Source of the DNA: Alteromonas australica
GTDB taxonomy: Bacteria > Pseudomonadota > Gammaproteobacteria > Enterobacterales > Alteromonadaceae
Reading direction: 5' to 3'
DNA: 64,000 nt
NCBI RefSeq assembly: GCF_000730385.1
Contig: NZ_CP008849.1
Coordinates: forward strand, 682,001-746,000
Every line of letters starts with the position of its first letter. The stretch's first letter is position 1. The translations under genes were made by a program, and so were the position numbers. This document shows positions 44,443-63,289 of this stretch, in pieces. Below the pieces are notes generated by a model. That model ran no database searches and was not told where the DNA came from. It was given only the letters and a program-made list of their open reading frames with translations.

Positions 44443-45018
44443 TTGGCAGGGTCAAATGAATATCACGCGCGTATTGGGTTATTGCTAAAGGCAGACCCGT
44501 TTCGCTGGCGGTGCTTACTGGCCCTGCAGTCTCTTCAACTTCCCCAAGGTTATATCGGTGCTGGCTTTTTACGTAATTGCATTTGGGACAGCCTGTTACC
44601 AGAGCATCGTTCAAACTTCACTCATAGTTCACCGCTTAACGATATCGACGTTATCTATTTTGATGTAAAGGATACGAGCAAAGAAACAGAACGCTTATTG
44701 GAAACACAACTTAGCCGTAGGGTTCCTGAAGCTAACTGGCAGGTAAGAAATCAAGCGCGTATGCACCTTAAGCATGGTCATGCTGCCTATAAAAACTGTG
44801 AAGAAGCTTTGTCGTATTGGATAGAGCGAGAAACCTGCGTGGCGGTAAGATTAACCGATGAGGGAAAATGCGATATTCTTGCGCCTTACGGTATAGATGC
44901 GAATTTTTCAGGTACGCTAAGTATTAATCCGCAATACCCCAGACCCAGTGTATTTCGTCAAAGAGTGAACGACAAAGGCTGGTTGACCCTCTGGCCTTTT
45001 TTAACCCTTTCGGGGTGA
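44443..45018 (+). CDS. Nucleotidyltransferase-like protein (DUF925)
   Basis: The conserved core includes GAGFLRNCIWD, NDIDVIYFD (metal-binding aspartates), WQVRNQARMHLKHGHAAYKN, then ILAPYGIDANFSG and a closing WLTLWPFL, all typical of PF06042. The start is unclear: the frame is open to 44317. The family's usual N-terminus puts the start at about the TTG at 44443 (used here); a GTG at 44389 would overlap the PAP2 gene. Function unknown. Its last 18 bases overlap the end of the convergent nasR gene. Confidence 0.82.
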   Translation: MAGSNEYHARIGLLLKADPFRWRCLLALQSLQLPQGYIGAGFLRNCIWDSLLPEHRSNFTHSSPLNDIDVIYFDVKDTSKETERLLETQLSRRVPEANWQVRNQARMHLKHGHAAYKNCEEALSYWIERETCVAVRLTDEGKCDILAPYGIDANFSGTLSINPQYPRPSVFRQRVNDKGWLTLWPFLTLSG

Positions 45019-46344
45019 CGCCGCTTTCTGCGCTATCTCTACCACTTTATTCGCGATGGAAGGCAAAGTGGTATTTTCATTCATGGCTTGTTTTTGCAAT
45101 CGTCGATAGGCCTCGTGCTCACTGATTTTAAATTGCTGCATTAGAATTAATTTCGCTCTATCAATAAGCTTATGTTCTGTGATGGCGCGCTTGGCTTCTT
45201 CTAGCTCACGGGTCATATCTTCGATGTATTGTGCCTGCCCTCGCAATAAATCATAAAACGAGCGATGTGCCGATAGCGTTTCAGTTTGTCCGTCTAGCGT
45301 AGGGTGGGGATGTGCATCATGATCTTCCACTAGCCCAGGCATGCTGGGGTCAAACAACAACGTTAATGGGGAGCCTTCTGGCACATACTCATCAGAAAAA
45401 CTACTAATGAGACGCTGATGGTTTTTCATTTCATTTTGGGCGTTCGTGACTTTGTGTCTCGCCTCGTTAATTAACCCTTCGGTGAGGGTATTTTCAATTT
45501 CTTGCATGGCATCGATGCGGCGAGTGGCAACGTCGAACCACACTTCACTAATTTCAGGTGCAATAGGGCTACCATCGGCCAATTGCGCAATCATTTTTCG
45601 TAGCTGGTTAATATCATGCGCCGCAGGGCTATCGTTTAATTTATCTAGTAAGGCGGTTTGCTTGGCGGCGGCGAATTCTTGAAATACAGAGAAGTGGTGC
45701 AATTGCGCTTGTTGGAGCGTGCATAGTTTTTCACATAAACGTTTATCAAAATGAGTTTCGGCAAAACCAATGGCCCCCCAGGCCCTTTCTTGGCCCGCAT
45801 ACTCTTTGCCCTGCATAAAGTTAAACAGTGCCACGAGGGTGCGAGTGATAGTGGGATCACTGGCAATATCCGCAGCTTCAAATATCACGGTAAGTAACCC
45901 AGCCACTAACCGACAATATGCACGAGTAGACTCGAGGGCTGATAATGATAAGCCCGACACCTTTTCCCTCAACACAGGCAAATAGTCGATGCCTTGAAGG
46001 GCTAACGTGATGCTGCTTAACAGGCGCGGGTTAGCGTTGACTCTATCTTGAGTTAGAAATAGCGATTTAAGCTGGCTGCGTAATATGGATTCAGCGTCTT
46101 TTGCGTGCGCAATATGAGTGTCTCTTTGCTCAACGAAACGGGTACCTTTCGATGCAAGGTAAATGTTACTGGCTCCCCGCTCTTTTTGCAGAGCATGCAC
46201 TACATTTTTCACGGCAATAACAATACGGCAGTTGCTGGATAACTGTTCTAGCACGTTAATTTCAGCATGCTTGGCAGCTAATAAAAAGCGCTTGGTTGCA
46301 TCGCTTAAATTATCGGCATGTGCAGTTTGGGTATCGGTAGGCAT
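45001..46344 (-). CDS. nasR: Nitrate/nitrite-sensing antiterminator, NIT plus ANTAR domains (NasR-like)
   Basis: 447 residues. The NIT sensor (~35-290) has the conserved HALQKERGASNIYLAS helix that carries the nitrate-binding arginine region. The ANTAR RNA-binding domain (~375-440) has DRAKLILMQQFKISEHEAYRRLQKQAM. NasR binds nitrate or nitrite and then stabilises a hexaloop hairpin in target leaders to prevent termination. Two leaders with such a hairpin occur in this window, before nirB and before nrtA. The gene reads away from them and is separately transcribed. Confidence 0.9.
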   Translation of the reverse strand: MPTDTQTAHADNLSDATKRFLLAAKHAEINVLEQLSSNCRIVIAVKNVVHALQKERGASNIYLASKGTRFVEQRDTHIAHAKDAESILRSQLKSLFLTQDRVNANPRLLSSITLALQGIDYLPVLREKVSGLSLSALESTRAYCRLVAGLLTVIFEAADIASDPTITRTLVALFNFMQGKEYAGQERAWGAIGFAETHFDKRLCEKLCTLQQAQLHHFSVFQEFAAAKQTALLDKLNDSPAAHDINQLRKMIAQLADGSPIAPEISEVWFDVATRRIDAMQEIENTLTEGLINEARHKVTNAQNEMKNHQRLISSFSDEYVPEGSPLTLLFDPSMPGLVEDHDAHPHPTLDGQTETLSAHRSFYDLLRGQAQYIEDMTRELEEAKRAITEHKLIDRAKLILMQQFKISEHEAYRRLQKQAMNENTTLPSIANKVVEIAQKAASPRKG

Positions 46345-48930: not shown

Positions 48931-49020
48931 TACGTATTTAGTGAAAGTGTGAATGTGTGTCGAGCAATTTGCTCAAAACAATGTGTGTGTTGTGATTACG
49001 TGAATGGTCATAACAGTAGA

Positions 49021-49069
49021 TAGGCAACGAAGCCCGCTCCAACGTTAGTTGGAGCGGGCTTTTTTTTTG
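49021..49069 (+). promoter_or_regulatory. NasR-type attenuator in the nirB leader
   Basis: A hexaloop hairpin GGC-AACGAA-GCC (49023-49034) has A at loop position 1 and G at position 4, as ANTAR domains require. Its 3' arm overlaps the 5' arm of a terminator: 13-bp perfect stem 49031-49043 with 49048-49060, loop GTTA, and nine T to 49068. The two hairpins exclude each other. nirB starts at 49092 with GAGGAGA upstream. The upstream companion hairpin usual for ANTAR targets was not clearly identified. Confidence 0.8.
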
Positions 49070-49091
49070 CGATGAAAAAAGAGGAGAGACC

Positions 49092-51641
49092 ATGACATCT
49101 CTGGCTTCGAAAGAACGAATTCTTGTTGTTGGTAACGGCATGGTGGGACACCACTTTGTTGAGCAGTTACATCAGGCCAACGAAAATGCTCAAATTACCG
49201 TGTTGTGCGGCGAGTCGCGCTTGGCCTATGACCGTGTTCATCTGTCCTCTTATTTCAGTGGTGCCAGTGCAGAAGACCTTGCATTAACTGATGCTGCTAC
49301 TTATACAGAGTGGGGAGTGAATTTCGTTACGAACGCCATGGTAACCGACATTCTCCGTGATGAAAAAAAGGTATTAACCTCTGAAGGTCAGGCCTATGTG
49401 TACGACAAACTCATTTTGGCAACGGGTTCGTACCCCTTTGTTCCTCCTATTCCAGGCAATAACCAACCCCACTGTTTGGTTTACCGAACCATTGACGATT
49501 TAGAGGCAATAGAAGCTTCTGCCAGAGAAAGTAAAACAGGGGTTGTTGTAGGTGGCGGTCTACTGGGATTAGAAGCTGCAAATGCTTTGAAAGAAGCCGG
49601 TTTAGATACCCACGTGGTGGAATTTGCACCTCAGCTCATGGCCGTGCAACTTGATGTTACTGGCGGTCAAGTCCTCAAGGACAAGATTGAAGGTTTAGGG
49701 GTGACTGTGCATACCCAAAAAGCCACTCAGGTCATTGAGAGTGGCGAGCAGGCGCGATACCGTATGGTGTTTGCCGACGATACTTATTTAGAAACGGACA
49801 TGATCCTGTTTTCTGCAGGTATTCGTCCTTCCGACCAGTTGGGCAAAAAAGCCAATTTGGCGCTAGGTGAACGTGGGGGCATCGTCATTGACGATAGCTG
49901 CCTAACCTCAGATCCCGATATCTACGCCATTGGTGAATGTGCCTTGTGGCAAAACCGTATTTTTGGCTTAGTCGCGCCTGGTTATACTATGGCACGCGCC
50001 GCCGTCAGTCATTTGACCGGTGGCGATACACGCTTTTCCGGCGCAGATATGAGCACCAAATTAAAGTTAATGGGTGTAGAGGTTGGCTCTATTGGTGATG
50101 CTCACGAGCGAACCGAGGGGGCGCAAAGTTACACCTACTTTAATCAACCGGAAGGTGTGTATAAAAAATTAGTGGTCGATGCTGAGCAAAAGCAAGTGTT
50201 AGGTGCTGTACTTGTGGGTGACACCAGTGATTACGACACGTTGTTGCAGTATGCCTTAAACGGAATTGAACTGCCCGAACAGCCAGAAAGCCTTATCCTC
50301 CCAAGTAGCGATGCCGCACCTGCGCTAGGGGCAGATGCATTGCCTGATACCGCCACGATTTGTTCGTGTCATAACGTAGCCAAAAGCGACATTGTCACTG
50401 CAATTGATGGGGGTTGCTGTAGCTTAGGGGATGTGAAAGGCGCAACGAAAGCAAGCACCGGCTGTGGCGGATGCACTGCATTGCTGAAAAATGTCGTAGA
50501 CAGTGAGCTTGAAAAGCGCGGTGTTGAAGTGTCTAAAGCTATTTGTGAGCACTTCAATTATACCCGACAAGAGCTTTTTCACATTGTTAAAGTGAATGGC
50601 ATTACCTCGTTTGAGCAGTTGCTTGAAGGTCATGGCAAAGGATTAGGCTGCGAGATTTGTAAACCTGCCGTGGGCTCAATTCTGGCCTCTGTGTACAACG
50701 ACTATATTCTTAAACAAGAGCACCTCCCCCTGCAAGATACCAACGATATTTACCTTGGTAACATGCAAAAAGACGGGACTTACTCCATTGTACCAAGGGT
50801 GGCTGGCGGCGAAATTACCCCAGAAAAACTCATTCTTCTGGGTGAGGTCGCCAAGCAATATAACCTCTATACAAAAATAACCGGTGGCCAACGTATCGAC
50901 CTTTTTGGGGCGCGGGTGGAGCAATTACCTGAAATTTGGGAAACCTTAGTGGCCGGTGGATTCGAAACGGGCCATGCCTACGCGAAAGCGCTGCGAACAG
51001 TGAAATCCTGTGTAGGCAGTACTTGGTGTCGATACGGTGTTCAAGACTCAGTAAAAACCGCTATTGATTTAGAAAACCGTTACAAGGGATTGCGCGCGCC
51101 ACATAAAATCAAATTTGCGGTCTCTGGTTGTACCCGTGAATGCGCAGAAGCGCAAAGCAAAGATATTGGTGTTATCGCCACCGAGAATGGCTGGAATTTA
51201 TATGTGTGTGGCAACGGCGGTATGAAGCCTCGTCATGGCGACTTGTTTGCCACCGATTTAGATACTGAAACCCTAGTACGTTATATCGACAGAGTCTTGA
51301 TGTTCTACGTGCGTACTGCCGACCGACTCCAACGTACCTCAGTTTGGATGGACAATTTAGAAGGTGGCTTGGCATACCTTCAAGATGTGGTGATAAATGA
51401 TTCGTTGAATCTCAACGATGAACTTGAAGCACAAATGAATACCTTGGTAGCAAACTATCAGTGCGAGTGGAAAACCACTATTGAAGATGAAGCATCACGC
51501 AAGCGTTTCCGTCAGTTTGTAAATAGCAAAGCTGCAGATGCCAATATTCAATTCGTTGAAGAGCGTGGACAAGTTCGACCGGCAACAGAAATGGAAAAAA
51601 AGCTAGGTACGAATAAAGCGATTCCAGTGGACGTAATTTAA
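49092..51641 (+). CDS. nirB: NADH-dependent nitrite reductase, large subunit NirB
   Basis: 849 residues. N-terminal FAD/NAD(P)H oxidoreductase (VVGNGMVGHHFVEQL, VVVGGGLLGLEAA), a BFD-like [2Fe-2S] region (CSCHNV to STGCGGC), a NirB-specific ferredoxin-like half repeat and the siroheme/[4Fe-4S] reductase part with CVGSTWC and CTRECAEAQSKD. It reduces nitrite to ammonia in the cytoplasm with six electrons from NADH, together with NirD. It is first gene of an operon that runs to the trpD2 gene, behind the NasR-type attenuator. Confidence 0.97.
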   Translation: MTSLASKERILVVGNGMVGHHFVEQLHQANENAQITVLCGESRLAYDRVHLSSYFSGASAEDLALTDAATYTEWGVNFVTNAMVTDILRDEKKVLTSEGQAYVYDKLILATGSYPFVPPIPGNNQPHCLVYRTIDDLEAIEASARESKTGVVVGGGLLGLEAANALKEAGLDTHVVEFAPQLMAVQLDVTGGQVLKDKIEGLGVTVHTQKATQVIESGEQARYRMVFADDTYLETDMILFSAGIRPSDQLGKKANLALGERGGIVIDDSCLTSDPDIYAIGECALWQNRIFGLVAPGYTMARAAVSHLTGGDTRFSGADMSTKLKLMGVEVGSIGDAHERTEGAQSYTYFNQPEGVYKKLVVDAEQKQVLGAVLVGDTSDYDTLLQYALNGIELPEQPESLILPSSDAAPALGADALPDTATICSCHNVAKSDIVTAIDGGCCSLGDVKGATKASTGCGGCTALLKNVVDSELEKRGVEVSKAICEHFNYTRQELFHIVKVNGITSFEQLLEGHGKGLGCEICKPAVGSILASVYNDYILKQEHLPLQDTNDIYLGNMQKDGTYSIVPRVAGGEITPEKLILLGEVAKQYNLYTKITGGQRIDLFGARVEQLPEIWETLVAGGFETGHAYAKALRTVKSCVGSTWCRYGVQDSVKTAIDLENRYKGLRAPHKIKFAVSGCTRECAEAQSKDIGVIATENGWNLYVCGNGGMKPRHGDLFATDLDTETLVRYIDRVLMFYVRTADRLQRTSVWMDNLEGGLAYLQDVVINDSLNLNDELEAQMNTLVANYQCEWKTTIEDEASRKRFRQFVNSKAADANIQFVEERGQVRPATEMEKKLGTNKAIPVDVI

Positions 51642-51653
51642 TTCCGGGAGAAG

Positions 51654-52013
51654 ATGATGACAGCAACAACACAACTTGCCGCTCAGTGGCATGATGTCTG
51701 CGGGCTAGACGATTTAGTGAACAATAGTGGCGTATGTGCCCTCATCGGCGAACAACAAATTGCCATTTTTTCACTCACTATCAAGGGTGAGCAGCAAATC
51801 TACGCGATTAGCAATTGGGATCCCGTAGGGAAAGCAAATGTACTTTACCGCGGTTTACTTGGCTCTATTGGCGATGAAATTGTCGTAGCCTCACCGCTGT
51901 ATAAAGAGCATTACTCATTAGTGACGGGGCGCTGTCTAGAGCGAGATGACGTCAGCGTGCTGGCATATAAAGTGAAGCGAGACGGTGACCGTATTTTTGT
52001 TGCCGTTGAATAA
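51654..52013 (+). CDS. nirD: Nitrite reductase, small subunit NirD
   Basis: 119 residues. A Rieske-like fold without the Cys/His cluster ligands, as usual for NirD: IYAISNWDPVGKANVLYRGLLGS, then VVASPLYKEHYSLVTGRCLE. GGGAGAAG precedes a double ATG. It lies 12 bases after nirB and 29 bases before nasA and completes the NADH-nitrite reductase. Confidence 0.95.
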   Translation: MMTATTQLAAQWHDVCGLDDLVNNSGVCALIGEQQIAIFSLTIKGEQQIYAISNWDPVGKANVLYRGLLGSIGDEIVVASPLYKEHYSLVTGRCLERDDVSVLAYKVKRDGDRIFVAVE

Positions 52014-52042
52014 TTCCAAATAAGATTGCGAAGTGAAATAGG

Positions 52043-54796
52043 ATGAATATGGCCACACCCACCTACCAAGCGAATACATCGACAGAACAACTAAGGCAAT
52101 CTACCTGCCCTTACTGTGGTGTGGGCTGCGGTGTGGATATCAGTTGCAACGTAAATGGGCGTGTCGTATCCCTGGACAAGATTTGTGGTACGCCCGAGCA
52201 TCCGGCCAATCACGGTCGCTTATGTGTGAAAGGTACAAACCTGCTAGAAACAAACAGCCTTGGCGGGCGTTTGCTCCATCCAACCATAGCAGGGGAAAAG
52301 GTGGAATGGGACACAGCAACGCGCCTGATTGCCGACAAAATAACACAGACCGTAGCGCAGTATGGCGCGGATGCCGTTGCTTTTTATGTCTCGGGTCAGC
52401 TCCTGACAGAAGACTATTATATTGCCAATAAGCTAATGAAAGGCTTTATTGGTAGTGCCAACATAGACACCAATTCTCGCTTGTGCATGTCCTCAGCAGT
52501 AGCGGCATATAAGCGCGCATTTGGTGAAGATGTGGTGCCTTGTCAATATACCGACTTAGAGAGCACTGAATTGCTGGTGCTTACTGGTAGCAACACCGCA
52601 TGGGCCCACCCTGTGTTATTTCAACGAATTCAACGGGCGAAATTGCGTAATCCCAACATGAAAGTGGTGGTGCTAGATCCGCGTAAAACAGAAACTTGTA
52701 CCCTTGCAGATTTGCATTTACCGCTTAAGCCAGGTACAGACGTGGCGGTGTTTAATGGGTTGCTTAACTTTGCTCACACCAATGGCAGCATTGACGCAAA
52801 CCGCGTACATACCTTTGCCGATGGACTGGATGACGCTGTGGCGGCTGCTAACGACATGGACATAGATAGCGTTAGCCAATATAGCGATGTAAACGCTAAC
52901 GATTTACTCACCTTCTATAGGTGGTTTTGTGACGCTGAGCGCGTGATTACGTTTTACTCAATGGGCATCAATCAATCGGCCTTTGGCGTAGACAAAGCAA
53001 ATGCCATCATCAATTGTCACCTAGCACTGGAGCAGATAGGTCGAGAAGGGGCGGGGCCATTTTCTATTACCGGCCAACCTAATGCCATGGGGGGAAGAGA
53101 GGTGGGCGGATTAGCGAATATGCTTTCGGCTCACAGAGACATTGAAAACCCCAAGCACCGGGACAGTGTCAAATCGTTTTGGAACGCGCCGCATATTTGT
53201 GAACATCAAGGCCTTAAGGCGGTGGATCTATTTGATGCTATGGCATCAGGTAAAGTGAAGTTTGTGTGGATAATGGGCACAAACCCCGTGGTGAGTATGC
53301 CACACCGAGAACAAGTGGAAAATGCCCTTCGCCGATGTGAAACCGTGGTGGTGTCAGATATTGTCAATAAAAATGATACCCTTGATTTTGCACATATTGC
53401 TTTGCCTGCAACCGGGTGGTCAGAAAAAGATGGGATGGTGACAAATTCAGAGCGAAGAATGTCTCGTCAAAGAGGCATACTTCCTCCCCCCAAAGAGGCG
53501 CGTCACGATTGGCAAATTATGTGCGATGTTGCCAAAAAAATGGGGTTTGAAGATGCCTTTGATTATTCTCATCCTTACCAAATTTTTGATGAGTTTGCGC
53601 GTCTTACTGCTTACGAAAATGACGATGAAAAATTGCTGAATTTAGCCGCTTTGGTTGGCATGACTCAACAGGAATACGACAACTTCAGCCCTGTACAATG
53701 GCCTCTTGAAAGGCGCTCTGATGGAAGTGTACAAACTATTCGCCCCTTTACTTCGTTAACCTTTCCAACGGATAACGGTAAGGCGAAATGTATTGCAGTG
53801 ACGCCTCAGTTACCCCAACAAGTCACCACCGCTAGCTTTCCATTTGTGCTTAACAGCGGCCGCTCTAGAGACCATTGGCATACCATGACACGTACAGGGA
53901 AGGCCGCTAAATTACATGCGCATATGCCACACGCAAGCGTGTCTATGCATCCAATGGACGCACAAGCCCTGCAGCTTTCCTCAAAGGCTTATGTGAGTTT
54001 AAGCAGTGAAGTCAGTGGAGAAACCCCGTGTATTTTCCCTGTAAGTATTGATGAGGGTATCAGACGGGGAGAGCTTTTTATTCCCATTCACTGGTCCGGA
54101 GTTTGGGGTTCCCACAGCAAGCTCGCAAAGCTTTATGCTCCGGCGACAGATGCTATTTCTGGCCAACCCGAGTTAAAGCATGCCGCGGTTAATGTGGTGC
54201 CAACCTCATTTAAGAGTTTCGGGCAAGTGTGCATAAGAGAACAAGATGCGCAGCGTTTAGGCGATAGCTGGGGAGATTACTGGGCCAAAACTCAAACGGC
54301 ACATGGCGTCAGCTGGTCAGTGGCAAGTCACCTTGATATTTCACAGTGGTTATCACACCTTTTAACCCGTTTACCCAAAGATTGGGTAATATACCAACAC
54401 AAAAATACCTCAGGCGTCTGCCTAGTCGGTGTTCATAACGATACCGTGTGTGCCTTCGTCTCCCTTGGCCAGGTATGTCCTAGTCAATCACCGGATTGGC
54501 TACTGCCAATGGGGGGGATTGATAGCTTACTCAACTCAGCGCTCACTAACGACACCTTATCCAATTTGCTTCATGGACGTGTGGACGATGCCTTCACAAA
54601 AGGGGCACAGGTTTGTAGTTGCTTTAATGTGAGAGAAAAGACCATCAGTGAAGCGATTGAAGCTGGATGCCAAACGGTGGATGAGTTGGGTGAGCGATTA
54701 AAGTGTGGCACCAATTGTGGTTCTTGTAAGCCTCGACTGAGCGAAATGCTTAACGCTTTTGCTTCCCTTGAAATCCCCTCTGTTGAAACAGCCTAA
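52043..54796 (+). CDS. nasA: Assimilatory nitrate reductase catalytic subunit NasA
   Basis: 917 residues. N-terminal [4Fe-4S] motif CPYCGVGCGVDI with GRLCVKG, a molybdopterin oxidoreductase core (VLDPRKTETC, GQPNAMGGREVGG, MGTNPVVSMP) and a molydopterin-dinucleotide-binding domain (NSGRSRDHWHTMTRTGKAAKL). A C-terminal BFD-like [2Fe-2S] domain has CSCFNVREKT and CGTNCGSC. No signal peptide, so it is cytoplasmic. It reduces nitrate to nitrite. No separate NADH or ferredoxin subunit gene is adjacent. The ATG at 52049 is an alternative start with better ribosome-site spacing. Confidence 0.96.
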   Translation: MNMATPTYQANTSTEQLRQSTCPYCGVGCGVDISCNVNGRVVSLDKICGTPEHPANHGRLCVKGTNLLETNSLGGRLLHPTIAGEKVEWDTATRLIADKITQTVAQYGADAVAFYVSGQLLTEDYYIANKLMKGFIGSANIDTNSRLCMSSAVAAYKRAFGEDVVPCQYTDLESTELLVLTGSNTAWAHPVLFQRIQRAKLRNPNMKVVVLDPRKTETCTLADLHLPLKPGTDVAVFNGLLNFAHTNGSIDANRVHTFADGLDDAVAAANDMDIDSVSQYSDVNANDLLTFYRWFCDAERVITFYSMGINQSAFGVDKANAIINCHLALEQIGREGAGPFSITGQPNAMGGREVGGLANMLSAHRDIENPKHRDSVKSFWNAPHICEHQGLKAVDLFDAMASGKVKFVWIMGTNPVVSMPHREQVENALRRCETVVVSDIVNKNDTLDFAHIALPATGWSEKDGMVTNSERRMSRQRGILPPPKEARHDWQIMCDVAKKMGFEDAFDYSHPYQIFDEFARLTAYENDDEKLLNLAALVGMTQQEYDNFSPVQWPLERRSDGSVQTIRPFTSLTFPTDNGKAKCIAVTPQLPQQVTTASFPFVLNSGRSRDHWHTMTRTGKAAKLHAHMPHASVSMHPMDAQALQLSSKAYVSLSSEVSGETPCIFPVSIDEGIRRGELFIPIHWSGVWGSHSKLAKLYAPATDAISGQPELKHAAVNVVPTSFKSFGQVCIREQDAQRLGDSWGDYWAKTQTAHGVSWSVASHLDISQWLSHLLTRLPKDWVIYQHKNTSGVCLVGVHNDTVCAFVSLGQVCPSQSPDWLLPMGGIDSLLNSALTNDTLSNLLHGRVDDAFTKGAQVCSCFNVREKTISEAIEAGCQTVDELGERLKCGTNCGSCKPRLSEMLNAFASLEIPSVETA

Positions 54797-58341: not shown

Positions 58342-58359
58342 TTGGCATGATCAGTGCTT
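58342..58359 (+). promoter_or_regulatory. Candidate sigma-54 promoter of nrtABC
   Basis: TTGGCATGATCAGTGCTT has GG at 58344-58345 and GC at 58356-58357 with exactly ten bases between, the sigma-54 -24/-12 spacing. It would place transcription start near 58370, before the attenuator. Confidence 0.6.
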
Positions 58360-58528
58360 TTTATAAATGTAACTCGTTCAATGCATAATATGACATTGAG
58401 TGATAATAAAAATAAGAAACGCTAGGAATATATCGCGTACATCTTCAGAGGTATGCAAGGAAGAGAAGGAATCCTCTTCATATAACAATACAGTCGCTTG
58501 TTTCTCATCGCGAGGTGACATAACAGGC

Positions 58529-58590
58529 ATGGCAACGAAGCCCACCAGCAAATAATGCTAATCCATTATTCGCTGGTGGGTTTTTTTTTG
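58529..58590 (+). promoter_or_regulatory. NasR-type attenuator in the nrtA leader
   Basis: The hexaloop hairpin GGC-AACGAA-GCC (58531-58542) is identical to the one before nirB. It abuts and shares bases with the terminator: 9 bp CCCACCAGC/GCTGGTGGG, one mismatch, 7 bp AATAATG/CATTATT, six-base loop and nine T (58581-58589). A shared CATAACAG lies upstream in both leaders. nrtA starts at 58606. Confidence 0.8.
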
Positions 58591-58605: not shown

Positions 58606-60009
58606 ATGTTTACGTTAAAAACTAGCTCGCTGTTAAAAAATGTACCCAAAACACTGACGAAAGTACTCGCCCTGACGCTCATGGTCAGTGCTCCCCTAAG
58701 CCTTGCGCAAAGCGAAGAAAGCGTGGGGTGGCCAGAGAAAGAAGAACTTAAATTCGGTTTTATTAAACTAACCGATATGGCTCCCCTTGCCATTGCCTAT
58801 GAAAAAGGCTTCTTCGAAGATGAAGGACTGTACGTAACACTGGAAGCACAAGCGAATTGGAAAGTGTTGCTTGACCGTGTTATCGACGGGCAATTAGATG
58901 GTGCGCATATGTTGGCTGGGCAGCCACTAGGCGCAACCATTGGGTTTGGTACGGAGTCCCACGTTGTCACTGCATTTAGTATGGACTTAAACGGTAATGG
59001 TATCACTGTCTCCAACGAAATTTGGGACAAAATGAAAGCCCATATTCCCGTAAAAGAGGGTAAACCAGTACATCCTATTAAAGCAGATTACCTAAAACCT
59101 GTTGTGGATGAATACCGCGAAGCGGGTAAGCCATTTAAAATGGGGATGGTATTTCCTGTCTCTACTCACAACTATGAACTTAGATATTGGTTAGCAGCAG
59201 GTGGTATTCATCCTGGTTACTATGCACCTCATAAAGGTGATACCTCTGGGCAAATAGATGCTCAAGCGCTACTGTCGGTTACGCCACCACCACAAATGCC
59301 AGCCACGATGGAAGCCGGCACCATTTACGGGTATTGCGTAGGTGAGCCATGGAACCAGCAGGCGGTATTTAAAGGTATTGGTGTGCCAGTGATCACCGAT
59401 TACGAAATTTGGAAAAACAACCCAGAGAAAGTATTTGGCGTAAGCCAGGCTTGGGCGGATAAATACCCTAATACGCATATCCGAGTGGTTAAAGCGCTTA
59501 TCAGAGCCGCCATGTGGTTAGATGAAAACAACAATGCCAATCGTCCTGAAGCAGTAAAAATTCTTGCTAAAAGCACGTATGTAGGTGCGGATGAAGAAGT
59601 ACTGGCTAACAGTATGACAGGTACTTTCGAATACGAAAAAGGCGACAAACGCGAGGTGCCTGATTTCAACGTGTTCTTCCGTTATAACGCTACCTTCCCT
59701 TATTACAGTGATGCCATCTGGTACTTAACGCAAATGCGTCGTTGGGGGCAAATTTCTGAACCTAAGTCAGACGACTGGTACAAGGACATTGCGCGCAAAG
59801 TGTACAAACCTGAAATTTATGCGGTGGCGGCGAAAGCCCTTATCGCTGAAGGCAAAGCCGATGCGGCAGACTTCCCAGAATTCGATACAGAAACAGGGTT
59901 TAAACCACCGCAAAGCGAGTTTATCGACGACGTCACTTACGATGGTTCAAAACCCAACGCTTATTTAGAGCAGTTTAACATTGGCTTGAAAGGCGAAACG
60001 GTACTGTAA
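58606..60009 (+). CDS. nrtA: Nitrate ABC transporter, substrate-binding protein NrtA
   Basis: 467 residues from the ATG at 58606 (GAGGAA upstream). Sec signal peptide ending near PLSLAQ. The NMT1/NrtA fold has [52 protein letters not shown] and [12 protein letters not shown]. Periplasmic, binds nitrate (possibly nitrite). First gene of the nrtABC operon, behind an attenuator. Confidence 0.93.
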
Positions 60010-60042
60010 TCCGAACATCCACAGGTATTCATGGAGAAATTT

Positions 60043-61038
60043 ATGAGCAAAATGGCAAATATCCTCAGTGTGTCCCCTACCAGAGCCCCCTCTGGCGGGG
60101 CACTCGCTAAAGTGTATCAATCAGCACCGGTATTGTTGTTGCCATTGATTGGACTGCTGATGTTTTTAGCGGTGTGGAATGGTGTGGCGAAATCCATTGA
60201 TACGTCTTTAGGGCAGTTCCCTGGTCCTGCTCAGGTATGGGAACAAGCGGGTGTATTGATTGATGAGCACAACGCACAGCGCGAAAAAGCGGATGCATTT
60301 TACGAGCGACAAGCGCAGCGTAATGCGGCAAGAGTGGCACAAGATCCAAGCTATGAACCTAAAGTGAGAGACTTCACCGGCGCACCTACTTTCATTGACC
60401 AAATATGGACAAGTTTGTATACCGTGATGGTGGGGTTCTTTATCGCGTCTATCATTGCTGTGCCGTTGGGTATAGTGTGTGGTTTAAGTAAGTCAGCTTA
60501 TACTGCGATTAACCCGCTTATTCAGCTGTTCAAGCCGGTTTCCCCGCTTGCGTGGCTGCCCTTAGTCACTATGGTCGTGAGTGCCTTGTATGTCAGTGAT
60601 GACCCCGCCTTTTCGAAGTCGTTTGTTACCTCAGCATTTACCGTATCACTCTGCTGCTTATGGCCGACGCTTATCAATACAGCCGTTGGTGTATCCAGTA
60701 TCGATAGTGACCTTATAAACGTGAGTAAAGTACTTCGCTTAACACCGTTTTCCCATCTCACGAAAATTGTATTGCCATCGTCCATCCCTATGATTTTCAC
60801 CGGTTTGCGCTTGTCCTTAGGCATAGGTTGGATGGTATTGATTGCGGCAGAAATGTTGGCGCAAAACCCTGGGTTAGGGAAGTTCGTCTGGGATGAGTTC
60901 CAAAATGGTAGTTCAGAGTCACTGGCTCGAATTATGGTGGCAGTGCTCACTATTGGGGCTATCGGCTTTGTGTTAGATAGAGCCATGTTATCGATACAGC
61001 GATTCGTAAGCTGGGACAAAACCAGCGTATTACGCTAG
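60043..61038 (+). CDS. nrtB: Nitrate ABC transporter, permease NrtB
   Basis: 331 residues from the ATG at 60043, which has GGAGAA upstream; an ATG at 60031 is the alternative. Six membrane segments and the permease motif EMLAQNPGLGKFVWDEFQN. The N-terminal region carries an extra charged loop (NAQREKADAFYERQAQRN) between the first helix and the core, common in NrtB. Forms the inner-membrane channel with NrtA and the ATPase. Confidence 0.92.
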   Translation: MSKMANILSVSPTRAPSGGALAKVYQSAPVLLLPLIGLLMFLAVWNGVAKSIDTSLGQFPGPAQVWEQAGVLIDEHNAQREKADAFYERQAQRNAARVAQDPSYEPKVRDFTGAPTFIDQIWTSLYTVMVGFFIASIIAVPLGIVCGLSKSAYTAINPLIQLFKPVSPLAWLPLVTMVVSALYVSDDPAFSKSFVTSAFTVSLCCLWPTLINTAVGVSSIDSDLINVSKVLRLTPFSHLTKIVLPSSIPMIFTGLRLSLGIGWMVLIAAEMLAQNPGLGKFVWDEFQNGSSESLARIMVAVLTIGAIGFVLDRAMLSIQRFVSWDKTSVLR

Positions 61039-61053
61039 TCAAAGGAGACACAT

Positions 61054-61920
61054 ATGCAACCTAAACATTTAGAACTAACCCAAGTAGGGATTGACTTCCC
61101 TACACCAAAGGGCCCGTTTACTGCGCTCACCGACGTTAACCTTAAAATAGCGAAAGGTGAATTTGTTTCTCTTATTGGCCACTCAGGTTGTGGTAAATCC
61201 ACCGTACTGAATATTGTCGCGGGCTTGCATACAGCCACTACCGGAGGCGTCATCCTCGATGGTGCGGAGGTGAACTCTCCGGGGCCTGAGCGTGCAGTCG
61301 TGTTTCAAAATCATTCATTGCTGCCTTGGTTAAGCGTGTATAAAAATGTTGAGTTAGCGGTAAAACACGCTATGCGTGGAAAATCGAAACAGGAAATGCG
61401 TGATTGGGTCATGCACAACCTTGAACTCGTTCATATGACCCATGCTTTAGATAAGTTGCCCAGTGAAATCTCTGGTGGCATGAAGCAAAGAGTCGGTATT
61501 GCCAGGGCACTGTCTATGCAACCTAAAGTGTTACTTATGGATGAACCCTTTGGGGCGCTTGACGCACTTACACGTGCACATTTGCAGGATGCGCTTATGG
61601 AAATTCATGCAAATTTGGGTAACACAGTGATTATGATTACCCATGACGTGGACGAAGCCGTTTTGTTATCCGATCGTATCGTGATGATGAACAATGGCCC
61701 AGCGGCCACCATTGGTGAAATACTCAACGTTGAACTGCCACGCCCACGTGAACGTCTTGCGCTGGCGGATAATCCTGAATACAACCACTATCGTCATGAA
61801 GTGCTCACCTTTTTGTATGATAAACAAAAAAAAATTGAGCCTGTCTCGCCACATATTAAAGCCAATAAGGAAAAGGAGACGTCTGAATCAAAAGCTTCAA
61901 ACAGTTCAGATGCTGCCTAA
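61054..61920 (+). CDS. nrtC: Nitrate ABC transporter, ATP-binding protein NrtC/NrtD type
   Basis: 288 residues. Walker A GHSGCGKST, Q loop FQNHSLLPW, signature SGGMKQRVGIARAL, Walker B VLLMDEPFGALD and the switch His in MITHDVD. It lacks the fused NrtA-like domain of cyanobacterial NrtC, so it is NrtD-like in length. The C-terminal tail is Lys/Glu/Ser-rich. Follows nrtB by 15 bases. Confidence 0.94.
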   Translation: MQPKHLELTQVGIDFPTPKGPFTALTDVNLKIAKGEFVSLIGHSGCGKSTVLNIVAGLHTATTGGVILDGAEVNSPGPERAVVFQNHSLLPWLSVYKNVELAVKHAMRGKSKQEMRDWVMHNLELVHMTHALDKLPSEISGGMKQRVGIARALSMQPKVLLMDEPFGALDALTRAHLQDALMEIHANLGNTVIMITHDVDEAVLLSDRIVMMNNGPAATIGEILNVELPRPRERLALADNPEYNHYRHEVLTFLYDKQKKIEPVSPHIKANKEKETSESKASNSSDAA

Positions 61921-62065: not shown

Positions 62066-63289
62066 ATGAAAAATCAAAAGAGGTTCACACTGGCGTTAGT
62101 CAGTACAGCGGTATTGTCATCGTTGAGTGTTTCAGCGATGGCTGATGAAGATTGGTACGACATACTTAGCAATTCCAAAGCATGGGCAGACTTAAACTTG
62201 CGCTATGAAGGTGTTGATCAAGATAATGCCTTAGACGATGCCAGCGCGTTAACACTAAGGACACGCTTGGGCTTTCAAACAGGCAGTTTAAATGGGTTTT
62301 CATTTACTGCAGAAGTAGAAGACAGCCGAATTGTTATGGGGCAGGGCGATTATACTGTGGGACCTACAGGCTATAATGTAGGCGAGTATTCGGTGATTGC
62401 AGACCCTGAAACCACCGAAGTAGATCAAGCATTTCTACAATACAAGACTGAAGGTTTGACCTTAAAAGCAGGCCGCCAAGTTATCGCATTGGACAATCAT
62501 AGATTCATCGGCCATGTGGGCTGGCGTCAAGACCGTCAAACGTTTGATGGCGTAAGCGCGAAATACGTAGTCAGTGAGAACGTGGATGTATTTTATGCTT
62601 ACCTCAATCAACGTAATCGTATCTTTGCAGAAGCTGCAGATTTTGATTCTAAAGATCACCTGATCAACGCTAATTTCAAAACTGAAATGGGTAAGTTCAC
62701 CGCTTATGCGTACCTGTTAGAAGTTGATAATGATACCGCCAATGGCTTAGATACCTATGGTATTCGCTATAGCGGTAGCTATAAAACACAGAGCGTAGGC
62801 TGGGGATACGGCGCTGAATACGCTTCCCAAACGAGTGAGTCAGGGTCTGGCGATACTGCCACCGAATACGATGCTAACTATTTGAATGCGTACTTAGCGG
62901 CAACGGTTTCAGGTATTACAGCGAAAATTGACCACGAAGTGTTAGGCAGTGACGACGGTGCTTACGGTTTCTCTACCCCTCTTGCGACTTTGCACAAATT
63001 TAATGGCTGGACCGATCAGTTTCTTGCCACTCCAGCGCAAGGTTTAGTCGACACAACATTCTCTTTAAGTGGGAAGTTGGGTAAAGGTAAATGGTTATTG
63101 TCTTATCATAACTTTAGCGCAGATGAGAGTACCGAAGGTGTTGACGACTTAGGTAGTGAAGTGAACGTGCAATATACTGGGAAGCTGATGGAACGTTTCA
63201 ATTTTGGTATTAAATATGGTCATTACATGGCTGAAGATATCAAAGTAGATGCGGATAAATTCTGGGTCTGGGTGGGGACAAAGTTCTAA
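62066..63289 (+). CDS. Outer-membrane beta-barrel porin, alginate-export-like
   Basis: 407 residues from the ATG at 62066 (AAGGGA upstream); the frame extends back to 61973. Sec signal peptide (cut near VSAMA). Alternating beta-strand pattern, with LRTRLGFQTGSL, VDQAFLQYKTEGLTLKAGRQVIALDNHRFIG and a C-terminal strand ending KFWVWVGTKF (aromatic last residue). The family is alginate-export or phosphate-selective porin-like. Position after nrtC and before mobA suggests outer-membrane nitrate entry. Confidence 0.88.
   Translation: MKNQKRFTLALVSTAVLSSLSVSAMADEDWYDILSNSKAWADLNLRYEGVDQDNALDDASALTLRTRLGFQTGSLNGFSFTAEVEDSRIVMGQGDYTVGPTGYNVGEYSVIADPETTEVDQAFLQYKTEGLTLKAGRQVIALDNHRFIGHVGWRQDRQTFDGVSAKYVVSENVDVFYAYLNQRNRIFAEAADFDSKDHLINANFKTEMGKFTAYAYLLEVDNDTANGLDTYGIRYSGSYKTQSVGWGYGAEYASQTSESGSGDTATEYDANYLNAYLAATVSGITAKIDHEVLGSDDGAYGFSTPLATLHKFNGWTDQFLATPAQGLVDTTFSLSGKLGKGKWLLSYHNFSADESTEGVDDLGSEVNVQYTGKLMERFNFGIKYGHYMAEDIKVDADKFWVWVGTKF

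Follow-up and report, generated by a model that had tools for sequence, protein, structure and literature searches.

Two nitrate-assimilation operons of Alteromonas australica probably begin with an RNA switch that stops transcription unless the regulator NasR grips one small hairpin. The switch seems to belong to a known type, the ANTAR-protein attenuator, with its second landing hairpin missing, and the comparison of leader sequences makes it likely, with about two chances in three, that both leaders are NasR-controlled ANTAR attenuators using only one canonical hexaloop. The relevant features, all within a single window (the whole 64,000-nt stretch of contig NZ_CP008849.1 that was analyzed), are as follows.

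45001..46344, minus strand: nasR, encoding NIT and ANTAR domains (PF08376 and PF03861, each above its cut-off); no other ANTAR gene in the genome
48915..48930, plus strand: sigma54-like promoter of nirB, TGGCATCGTTTTTGGA, with TTGG for TTGC; consensus match only
48978..48982, plus strand: ACAAU 5′ of P1′, nirB leader
48988..49015, plus strand: P1′, predicted hairpin of the nirB leader, from folding; loop non-canonical
49023..49034, plus strand: putative P2 antiterminator hairpin, nirB leader; 12-mer identical to the nrtA copy
49029..49068, plus strand: intrinsic terminator, nirB leader; stem of 15 bp, then T9
49092..54796, plus strand: nirB, nirD and a molybdopterin oxidoreductase gene with BFD domain, downstream of the nirB leader
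58343..58358, plus strand: sigma54-type promoter of nrtA, TGGCAT-N5-GTGCT; consensus match only; predicted leader of 162 nt before P2
58485..58489, plus strand: ACAAU, AU-rich element 5′ of P1′, nrtA leader
58496..58528, plus strand: P1′, predicted hairpin of the nrtA leader, from folding; 2 nt 5′ of P2; no A1/G4 hexaloop
58531..58542, plus strand: putative P2 antiterminator hairpin, nrtA leader; GGC-AACGAA-GCC, A1/G4 hexaloop, C:G closing pair
58537..58589, plus strand: intrinsic terminator, nrtA leader; stem of 13+7 bp, then T9
58606..61920, plus strand: nrtABC-type nitrate ABC transporter genes; NtrCD model above cut-off, NrtA by Pfam NMT1_2, NtrB model below cut-off

The initial annotation described a second copy of one hairpin, adjoining a different but equally strong terminator before nrtA, and both copies, the other of which precedes nirB, are indeed present: the 12-mer GGCAACGAAGCC lies on the plus strand at 58531-58542 and 49023-49034, and 100 shuffles of the window yielded no match. 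The hairpin has A and G as the first and fourth bases of its AACGAA loop, a C:G closing pair and a stem of three pairs, and thus fits hairpin P2 of the ANTAR motif as well as the SELEX consensus for both hairpins that Klebsiella NasR binds (A1/G4 loop, C:G closure, three pairs; PMC7496416). The terminator stems are long and differ between the two leaders, each being followed by nine T. Because the 3′ arm of P2 is also the start of the terminator 5′ arm in both leaders, the two structures would be mutually exclusive. Set against the dual hexaloop motif (PMC3369931), the leaders contain a P2 with an A1/G4 hexaloop and at least 3 bp, whose 3′ arm doubles as part of the 5′ arm of an intrinsic terminator. 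The region of upstream hairpin and terminator folds at -50.4 kcal/mol before nrtA (58457-58590; z -6.2) and at -48.3 kcal/mol before nirB (48960-49070; z -6.7). No Rfam family reached its gathering score in a scan of the window. Judged by sequence, GGCAACGAAGCC corresponds to P2, the antiterminator hairpin in the leaders that ANTAR proteins bind, and so to only half of the published target, a point missed by the initial annotation; a P1 hairpin is expected upstream.

Exact matches to the 12-mer number four in the 4.31-Mb genome, a single contig, against about 0.5 expected for a random 12-mer. The genome-wide search suggested earlier, for the 12-mer pattern followed by a terminator pattern, returned exactly two sites, nirB and nrtA, and its reversed control none. 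The remaining two copies fall within open reading frames, and neither was seen to have a terminator downstream. Copies lacking a terminator had been named as grounds for rejecting an attenuator, but two coding-sequence sites are unsurprising for a 12-mer and do not refute that reading.

The product of nasR combines a NIT domain with a C-terminal ANTAR domain and matches Klebsiella oxytoca NasR (4AKK) at 4e-39, its sole match in the PDB by sequence; this match settles its fold, and the protein belongs to the NasR family. Like the K. oxytoca nasF/NasR system, the leaders here pair a NIT-ANTAR regulator with nitrate-assimilation targets and with a P2-type A1/G4 hexaloop overlapping an intrinsic terminator (PMC3369936). 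Unlike it, they serve two operons through separate leaders.

The proposal that NasR controls these attenuators gains support from comparison. Across the genus, a pattern search matched P2 plus terminator in all 46 genomes that carry an ANTAR gene and in 1 of the 13 that do not (Fisher p about 1e-11, relatedness ignored; reversed control 0), the 46 ANTAR matches being of NasR length except for a 65-aa frame in G188. The sole ANTAR-less genome with the pattern, G195, is a draft assembly in about 590 contigs and is 7% contaminated; it carries nrtA and P2 elements of two types, no ANTAR gene having been found, and is possibly a mixed draft. An ANTAR gene was found in 75 of the 147 genomes of the family sample, always singly apart from a weak second match in G106. 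Ten of these are of NasR type (also recovered with a NasR protein query), and nearly all other frames are about 200-270 aa and are here named NasT-like; among eight NasT-like proteins tested, all have the ANTAR domain and five match a receiver domain, three of the five above cut-off. The P2 element was not found in G047, the only family-sample genome with NrtA and no ANTAR gene. G195 and G047, where no ANTAR gene was found, are excluded from the class statistics, and 13 of 57 non-NasR NrtA matches, 4 of 28 non-NasR genomes lacking the locus and a partial nirB match in G198 were left out.

By script, P2 plus terminator precedes 48 of 49 NasR nrtA genes (the 49th, in G183, was seen in the pattern search) and 51 of 51 NasR nirB genes, and it occurs in 10 of 24 NasT-like nirB upstream regions. 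The NasT-like (receiver-type ANTAR) relatives in the family have the same targets and sigma54-like promoters, and P2 stands before a terminator in 43 of 43 of their nrtA leaders. In every one of the 99 NasR leaders scored, the terminator takes in all three P2 arm bases, which follows partly from the construction of the filter. The P2 loop reads ANNGAA in 92 of the 99, in contrast to NasT-like nrtA leaders, where ANNGUA is commonest (20/43) and ANNGAA is found in 9/43. Comparison across leaders supports the earlier suggestion that selection maintains the hairpin and not the sequence of the terminator. Two NasT-like loci, L208 (G001) and L211 (G142), have tandem A1/G4 hexaloop hairpins before nirB with no T-rich terminator seen by eye, which suggests another mode of control.

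ANTAR attenuators have been described as two A1/G4 hexaloop hairpins, and EutV antitermination in vivo needs both hexaloops and a linker of limited length (PMC3369931). For Klebsiella NasR at nasF, the P1 stem, A1 and G4 are reported as essential (PMC3369936). Because P1 is essential in both systems, a leader without it should fail by the published model. A canonical P1, strictly defined as a C:G-closed ANNGNN hexaloop with at least 3 bp, was looked for in both window leaders and is absent, which sets them apart from nasF, where NasR binding requires it (PMC3369936). The segment GUG-AAUGGU-CAU of the window nirB leader was rejected as a canonical P1, as it has a G:C closing pair and 3 bp and is not the predicted fold.

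The same absence extends through the genus and family. Within 50 nt before P2, a canonical P1 occurs in 1/42 NasR nrtA, 1/43 NasR nirB and 1/10 NasT-like nirB leaders, and in 24/43 unique NasT-like nrtA leaders (shuffle mean 0.6). Scoring from promoter to P2 covered leaders with promoter-like matches (NasR nrtA 39/48, 37 unique; NasR nirB 49/51, 43 unique; NasT-like nrtA 40/43 and nirB 8/10). It placed a canonical P1 in 2 of 80 unique NasR leaders (1/37 nrtA and 1/43 nirB; shuffle means 0.9 and 1.0) and in none of 8 NasT-like nirB leaders, whereas NasT-like nrtA leaders have kept it in 27 of 40 (shuffle mean 1.1). Of the 80 unique NasR leaders scored across genus and family, 78 thereby lack a canonical P1, the exceptions being the nrtA leader of G154 and the nirB leader of G171; for these NasR leaders, nrtA and nirB together, versus the NasT-like nrtA leaders, Fisher p is about 7e-15 with relatedness ignored. 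Allowing any Watson-Crick closing pair with 4 bp gave 29 NasT-like nrtA and 1 NasT-like nirB leaders (shuffle 3.5 and 0.6) and 2 NasR nrtA and 3 NasR nirB leaders (2.8 and 3.0). Within genus g3, the NasR genome G053 has no P1 before nrtA, and the NasT-like genomes G088, G116 and G140 have one. The lack is not specific to NasR, being shared by 13/40 NasT-like nrtA and 8/8 NasT-like nirB leaders. Among leaders of formate/nitrite-family (FNT) transporter genes, described below, a candidate P1 of at least 3 bp appears in 6/14 and one of at least 4 bp in 2/14 (shuffle means 0.3 and 0.1). One appears in 1/13 nirB leaders of the set L246-L294, in which 24 of 49 loci have no accepted leader and which also holds L247, L251, L260, L264 and L265 from Alteromonas and near kin.

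Some NasR lineages outside the clade have kept P1 (G536 and G327 by script; G422 and G219 by reading of the sequence). In the gammaproteobacterial NasR loci L326 and L331, of G422 and G219, respectively, a canonical P1 stands about 45 nt before P2 and an extra hairpin occupies the linker. Given this retention together with a linker hairpin, it is likely that P1 was lost from the Alteromonas-type leaders and that the hairpin now upstream of P2, here P1′, is the old linker hairpin.

A non-canonical hairpin usually stands between promoter and P2 in NasR leaders, in many cases with an ACAAY stretch ahead of it. Folding of the 45 nt before P2, compared with shuffles, has z below -2 in 20/29 NasR nrtA leaders (control stretch 2/29) and 31/40 NasT-like nrtA leaders (control 12/40); the 12/35 of NasR nirB leaders (control 6/35) give weak folding-energy support. 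The word CATAACAG, noted earlier as preceding both window hairpins, does lie 5′ of each P2, where it overlaps the P1′ 3′ arm, but it was rejected as a shared element: among 99 NasR leaders, only 3 have it within 60 nt before P2, and two of those are the window leaders. Farther upstream, 45 of 51 NasR nirB leaders have, in their best sigma54-like match, G, T or A rather than C after TGGCAY-N5-TTG; the window nrtA promoter has the usual GC, unlike the nirB promoters of NasR genomes.

It could be that these are ordinary dual-hairpin ANTAR leaders in which P1′ is the true P1 and NasR tolerates other loop sizes or sequences in the first hairpin, a reading to which we give roughly one chance in five. 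The hairpin is commonly predicted directly before P2, by eye some of its loops look like A-N-N-G (for instance CUC-AUCGC-GAG before nrtA in the window), and the altered ANTAR surface of these NasRs could mean an altered loop preference. P1′ also covaries in one lineage, represented by 12 nirB leaders (L267-L291: Rheinheimera, Alishewanella and two gammaproteobacterial MAGs). There, 98.5% of cells are paired (0/500 shuffles), and the covariation score is 0.367 vs 0.171 (0/500 shuffles; no more than 0.081 for slid versions). Of the five measures, two do not stand out, namely changes on both sides (6/9 pairs in these Rheinheimera-type leaders; 35/500 shuffles as high) and further pair types (469/500 shuffles). 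The loop in this set is UUU-like, not A1/G4. Against P1′ as a true P1, the predicted loops overall vary in length from 3 nt to 11 nt and beyond and share no G, and the flipping of G4 and a Met plug in the ANTAR fold probably rule out smaller loops, tetraloops among them (PMC8934654). Of 118 aligned sequences, 116 retain this Met; one of the remaining two is a gapped row and the other a misread frame.

Returning to leaders with a single canonical hexaloop, the stretch 5′ of P1′ is commonly ACAAUUU-like, a word that might be read as boxA-like or IHF-like. ACAAY occurs 12-70 nt from P2 in 21/29 NasR nrtA (shuffle 5.6), 16/35 NasR nirB (4.8), 11/14 L246-L294 nirB (2.1) and 19/40 NasT-like nrtA leaders (7.8), and it is not enriched in FNT-transporter leaders (1/11; 1.8). 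The Alteromonas and near-kin records in L246-L294 are partly of the same species as the genus set; counts repeated without duplicate species were 20/28 (5.5) for NasR nrtA, 16/33 (4.6) for NasR nirB, 3/5 (0.6) for L246-L294 nirB and 0/8 (1.7) for FNT-transporter leaders. With hairpins folded out, the distance from ACAAY to P2 narrows to 9.8 +/- 2.7 nt in NasR nrtA (raw 37.9 +/- 7.0), 9.8 +/- 5.2 nt in NasR nirB (raw 29.7 +/- 13.2) and 10.5 +/- 5.1 nt in NasT-like nrtA leaders (raw 46.4 +/- 10.0). ACAA is the commonest 4-mer of the excised flank, at 36/83 against a largest null count of 34 (mean of largest counts 23.6); without duplicates it stands at 32/74, reached by 1 of 300 shuffles. ACAAY was rejected as a proven second contact: the word test barely exceeds the null maximum, and the enrichment extends to NasT-like nrtA leaders and is absent from FNT leaders. 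Its enrichment in NasR leaders is moderate, and a role as part of the element is suggestive only.

The regulator itself may also have changed. Position R340 of K. oxytoca NasR is reported to be near-universal and essential for RNA binding, R340K binding about ten times more weakly (Goodson et al., PMC7496416). Window NasR, unlike the K. oxytoca protein, has His at that position and Gln at R366 (numbering after PMC7496416); Arg at the two positions is a trait of the characterized K. oxytoca protein rather than a formal family criterion. In our own mapping by position, they would correspond to Arg142 and Arg168 of EutV, both of which touch RNA in the crystal structure (PMC8934654). At R340, Arg is found in 29/29 NasT-like proteins and Gln or His in 31/31 ungapped NasRs of Alteromonas and near kin (rows L215-L247 without L246; one NasR row is gapped and L304 misread), with R 25, Q 22 and H 1 among 48 other NasRs. 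At R366, the corresponding counts are Arg 29/29, Gln 31/31, and Gln 38 and Arg 10. A strict tie between loss of R340 and loss of P1 was rejected, as G253, G471 and Alcanivorax L285 keep R340 without a canonical P1 (scored over 55-60 nt before P2); the Arg change is therefore not required for P1 loss. In L332 (G253), whose NasR keeps both arginines, two short leaders with P2 and without canonical P1, with ACAAU about 15 nt before P2, precede genes for an NMT1-type substrate-binding protein and a nirB-like protein.

Conceivably, P1 was lost in the lineage of this NasR together with the two RNA-contacting arginines, leaving a working single-hexaloop attenuator in which ACAAY has taken the place of P1, as a single-stranded NasR contact or as an aid to pausing or folding, about 10 nt from P2 once P1′ folds out. 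We hold this fuller scenario only tentatively, at about one chance in three, its probability being lowered slightly by the FNT-transporter leaders without ACAAY.

The genes downstream of the element fit a nitrate-assimilation regulon. The initial annotation proposed that NasR governs both uptake and reduction, and comparison supports this, the matches in the window's own genome being nrtA and nirB. By context, the molybdopterin oxidoreductase with BFD domain is the assimilatory nitrate reductase, although it does not reach NCBIfam cut-offs. Two ANTAR genomes of the genus, G171 and G164, have no NrtA match at 1e-100; the element stands before a NarK-family transporter gene and a porin gene in G171 and before a porin gene in G164. 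These porin genes are of Alginate_exp type (elements at L343:3794-3806 in G171 and L344:6606-6618 in G164). A porin gene of the same family (PF13372) follows nrtABC in the window, at 62066-63286, and the protein may be a nitrate porin. An equivalent P2 precedes FNT-transporter genes in Rheinheimera, Alishewanella, Marinobacterium, an Aestuariibacter and one Alteromonas, with the sequence GGAC-AAAGGC-GUCC (loop AACGGC in Marinobacterium); the family assignment comes from PF01226 on one protein (L275), the others having the same N-terminal words. From its position before NarK-type, porin and FNT transporter genes, the element appears to follow gene function rather than gene homology. Further genus pattern matches outside nas genes number one each in G149, G150, G151, G179, G191 and G195:C75.

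This distribution bears on whether the leaders could be plain terminators or attenuators under another factor, tied to NasR by neighborhood only. The NasR link in this genus is comparative only, but the distribution of P2 follows that of the ANTAR gene from genome to genome, even where the target genes are not homologous, and the NasT-like relatives have the same P2 type, so that such a factor is very improbable. Slightly less probable still is translational rather than transcriptional control, as proposed for ANTAR RNAs with hairpins at the ribosome binding site (PMC3369931, PMC8164766): the P2/terminator block does lie near the start codon in both window leaders, but a strong stem and T9 overlap P2 in each, as a terminator does throughout the NasR leaders scored.

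For NasR-controlled antitermination through one hexaloop, nitrate sensing, RNA binding and antitermination are carried over here from homologous systems. Transcription would start at the sigma54-type promoter under nitrogen limitation and, when nitrate is lacking, the leader would fold into its intrinsic terminator ahead of nrtA or nirB, giving terminated transcripts of about 220 nt (nrtA) and 128 nt (nirB) provided that the predicted starts are right. In the presence of nitrate or nitrite, the NIT domain would release the ANTAR domains, and a NasR dimer would bind the A1/G4 hexaloop of P2 and keep its 3-bp hairpin closed. The closed P2 would then occupy the terminator 5′ arm until polymerase is past. 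Between promoter and P2, the upstream recruitment hairpin P1 would be gone, with the ACAAY stretch and a P1′ of non-canonical loop in that interval. The Enterococcus faecalis EutV leaders are alike in having a P2-type hexaloop antiterminator, several leaders per genome and one hexaloop per dimer (PMC8934654), and differ in their signal domain and in needing both hexaloops and a limited linker (PMC3369931). In the EutV crystal structure, the ANTAR dimer touches one hexaloop, P1 is proposed as a recruitment hairpin, and single-hexaloop sites are raised as possible where no transcribing polymerase imposes a time limit (PMC8934654).

In the open-access literature, no paper has ANTAR and Alteromonas as whole words (subscription papers being outside the search), the two with ANTAR and Rheinheimera were off topic by title, and titles and abstracts yielded no natural single-hexaloop attenuator. 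The main text of a paper on nitrate genes in Alteromonas (PMC12388587) has, by word search, no nasR, nasT or nrtA.

In the published ANTAR model, the first hairpin recruits the protein before polymerase passes the terminator, and here 78 unique, related leaders look like attenuators without P1. The role of single-hexaloop sites was left open by the authors of the EutV-RNA structure (PMC8934654), and searches requiring both hairpins would overlook such sites. In this family, P1-less leaders occur beside close relatives that keep P1, along with candidate compensating changes in the protein, so that the question could be tested by swaps of leader and regulator.
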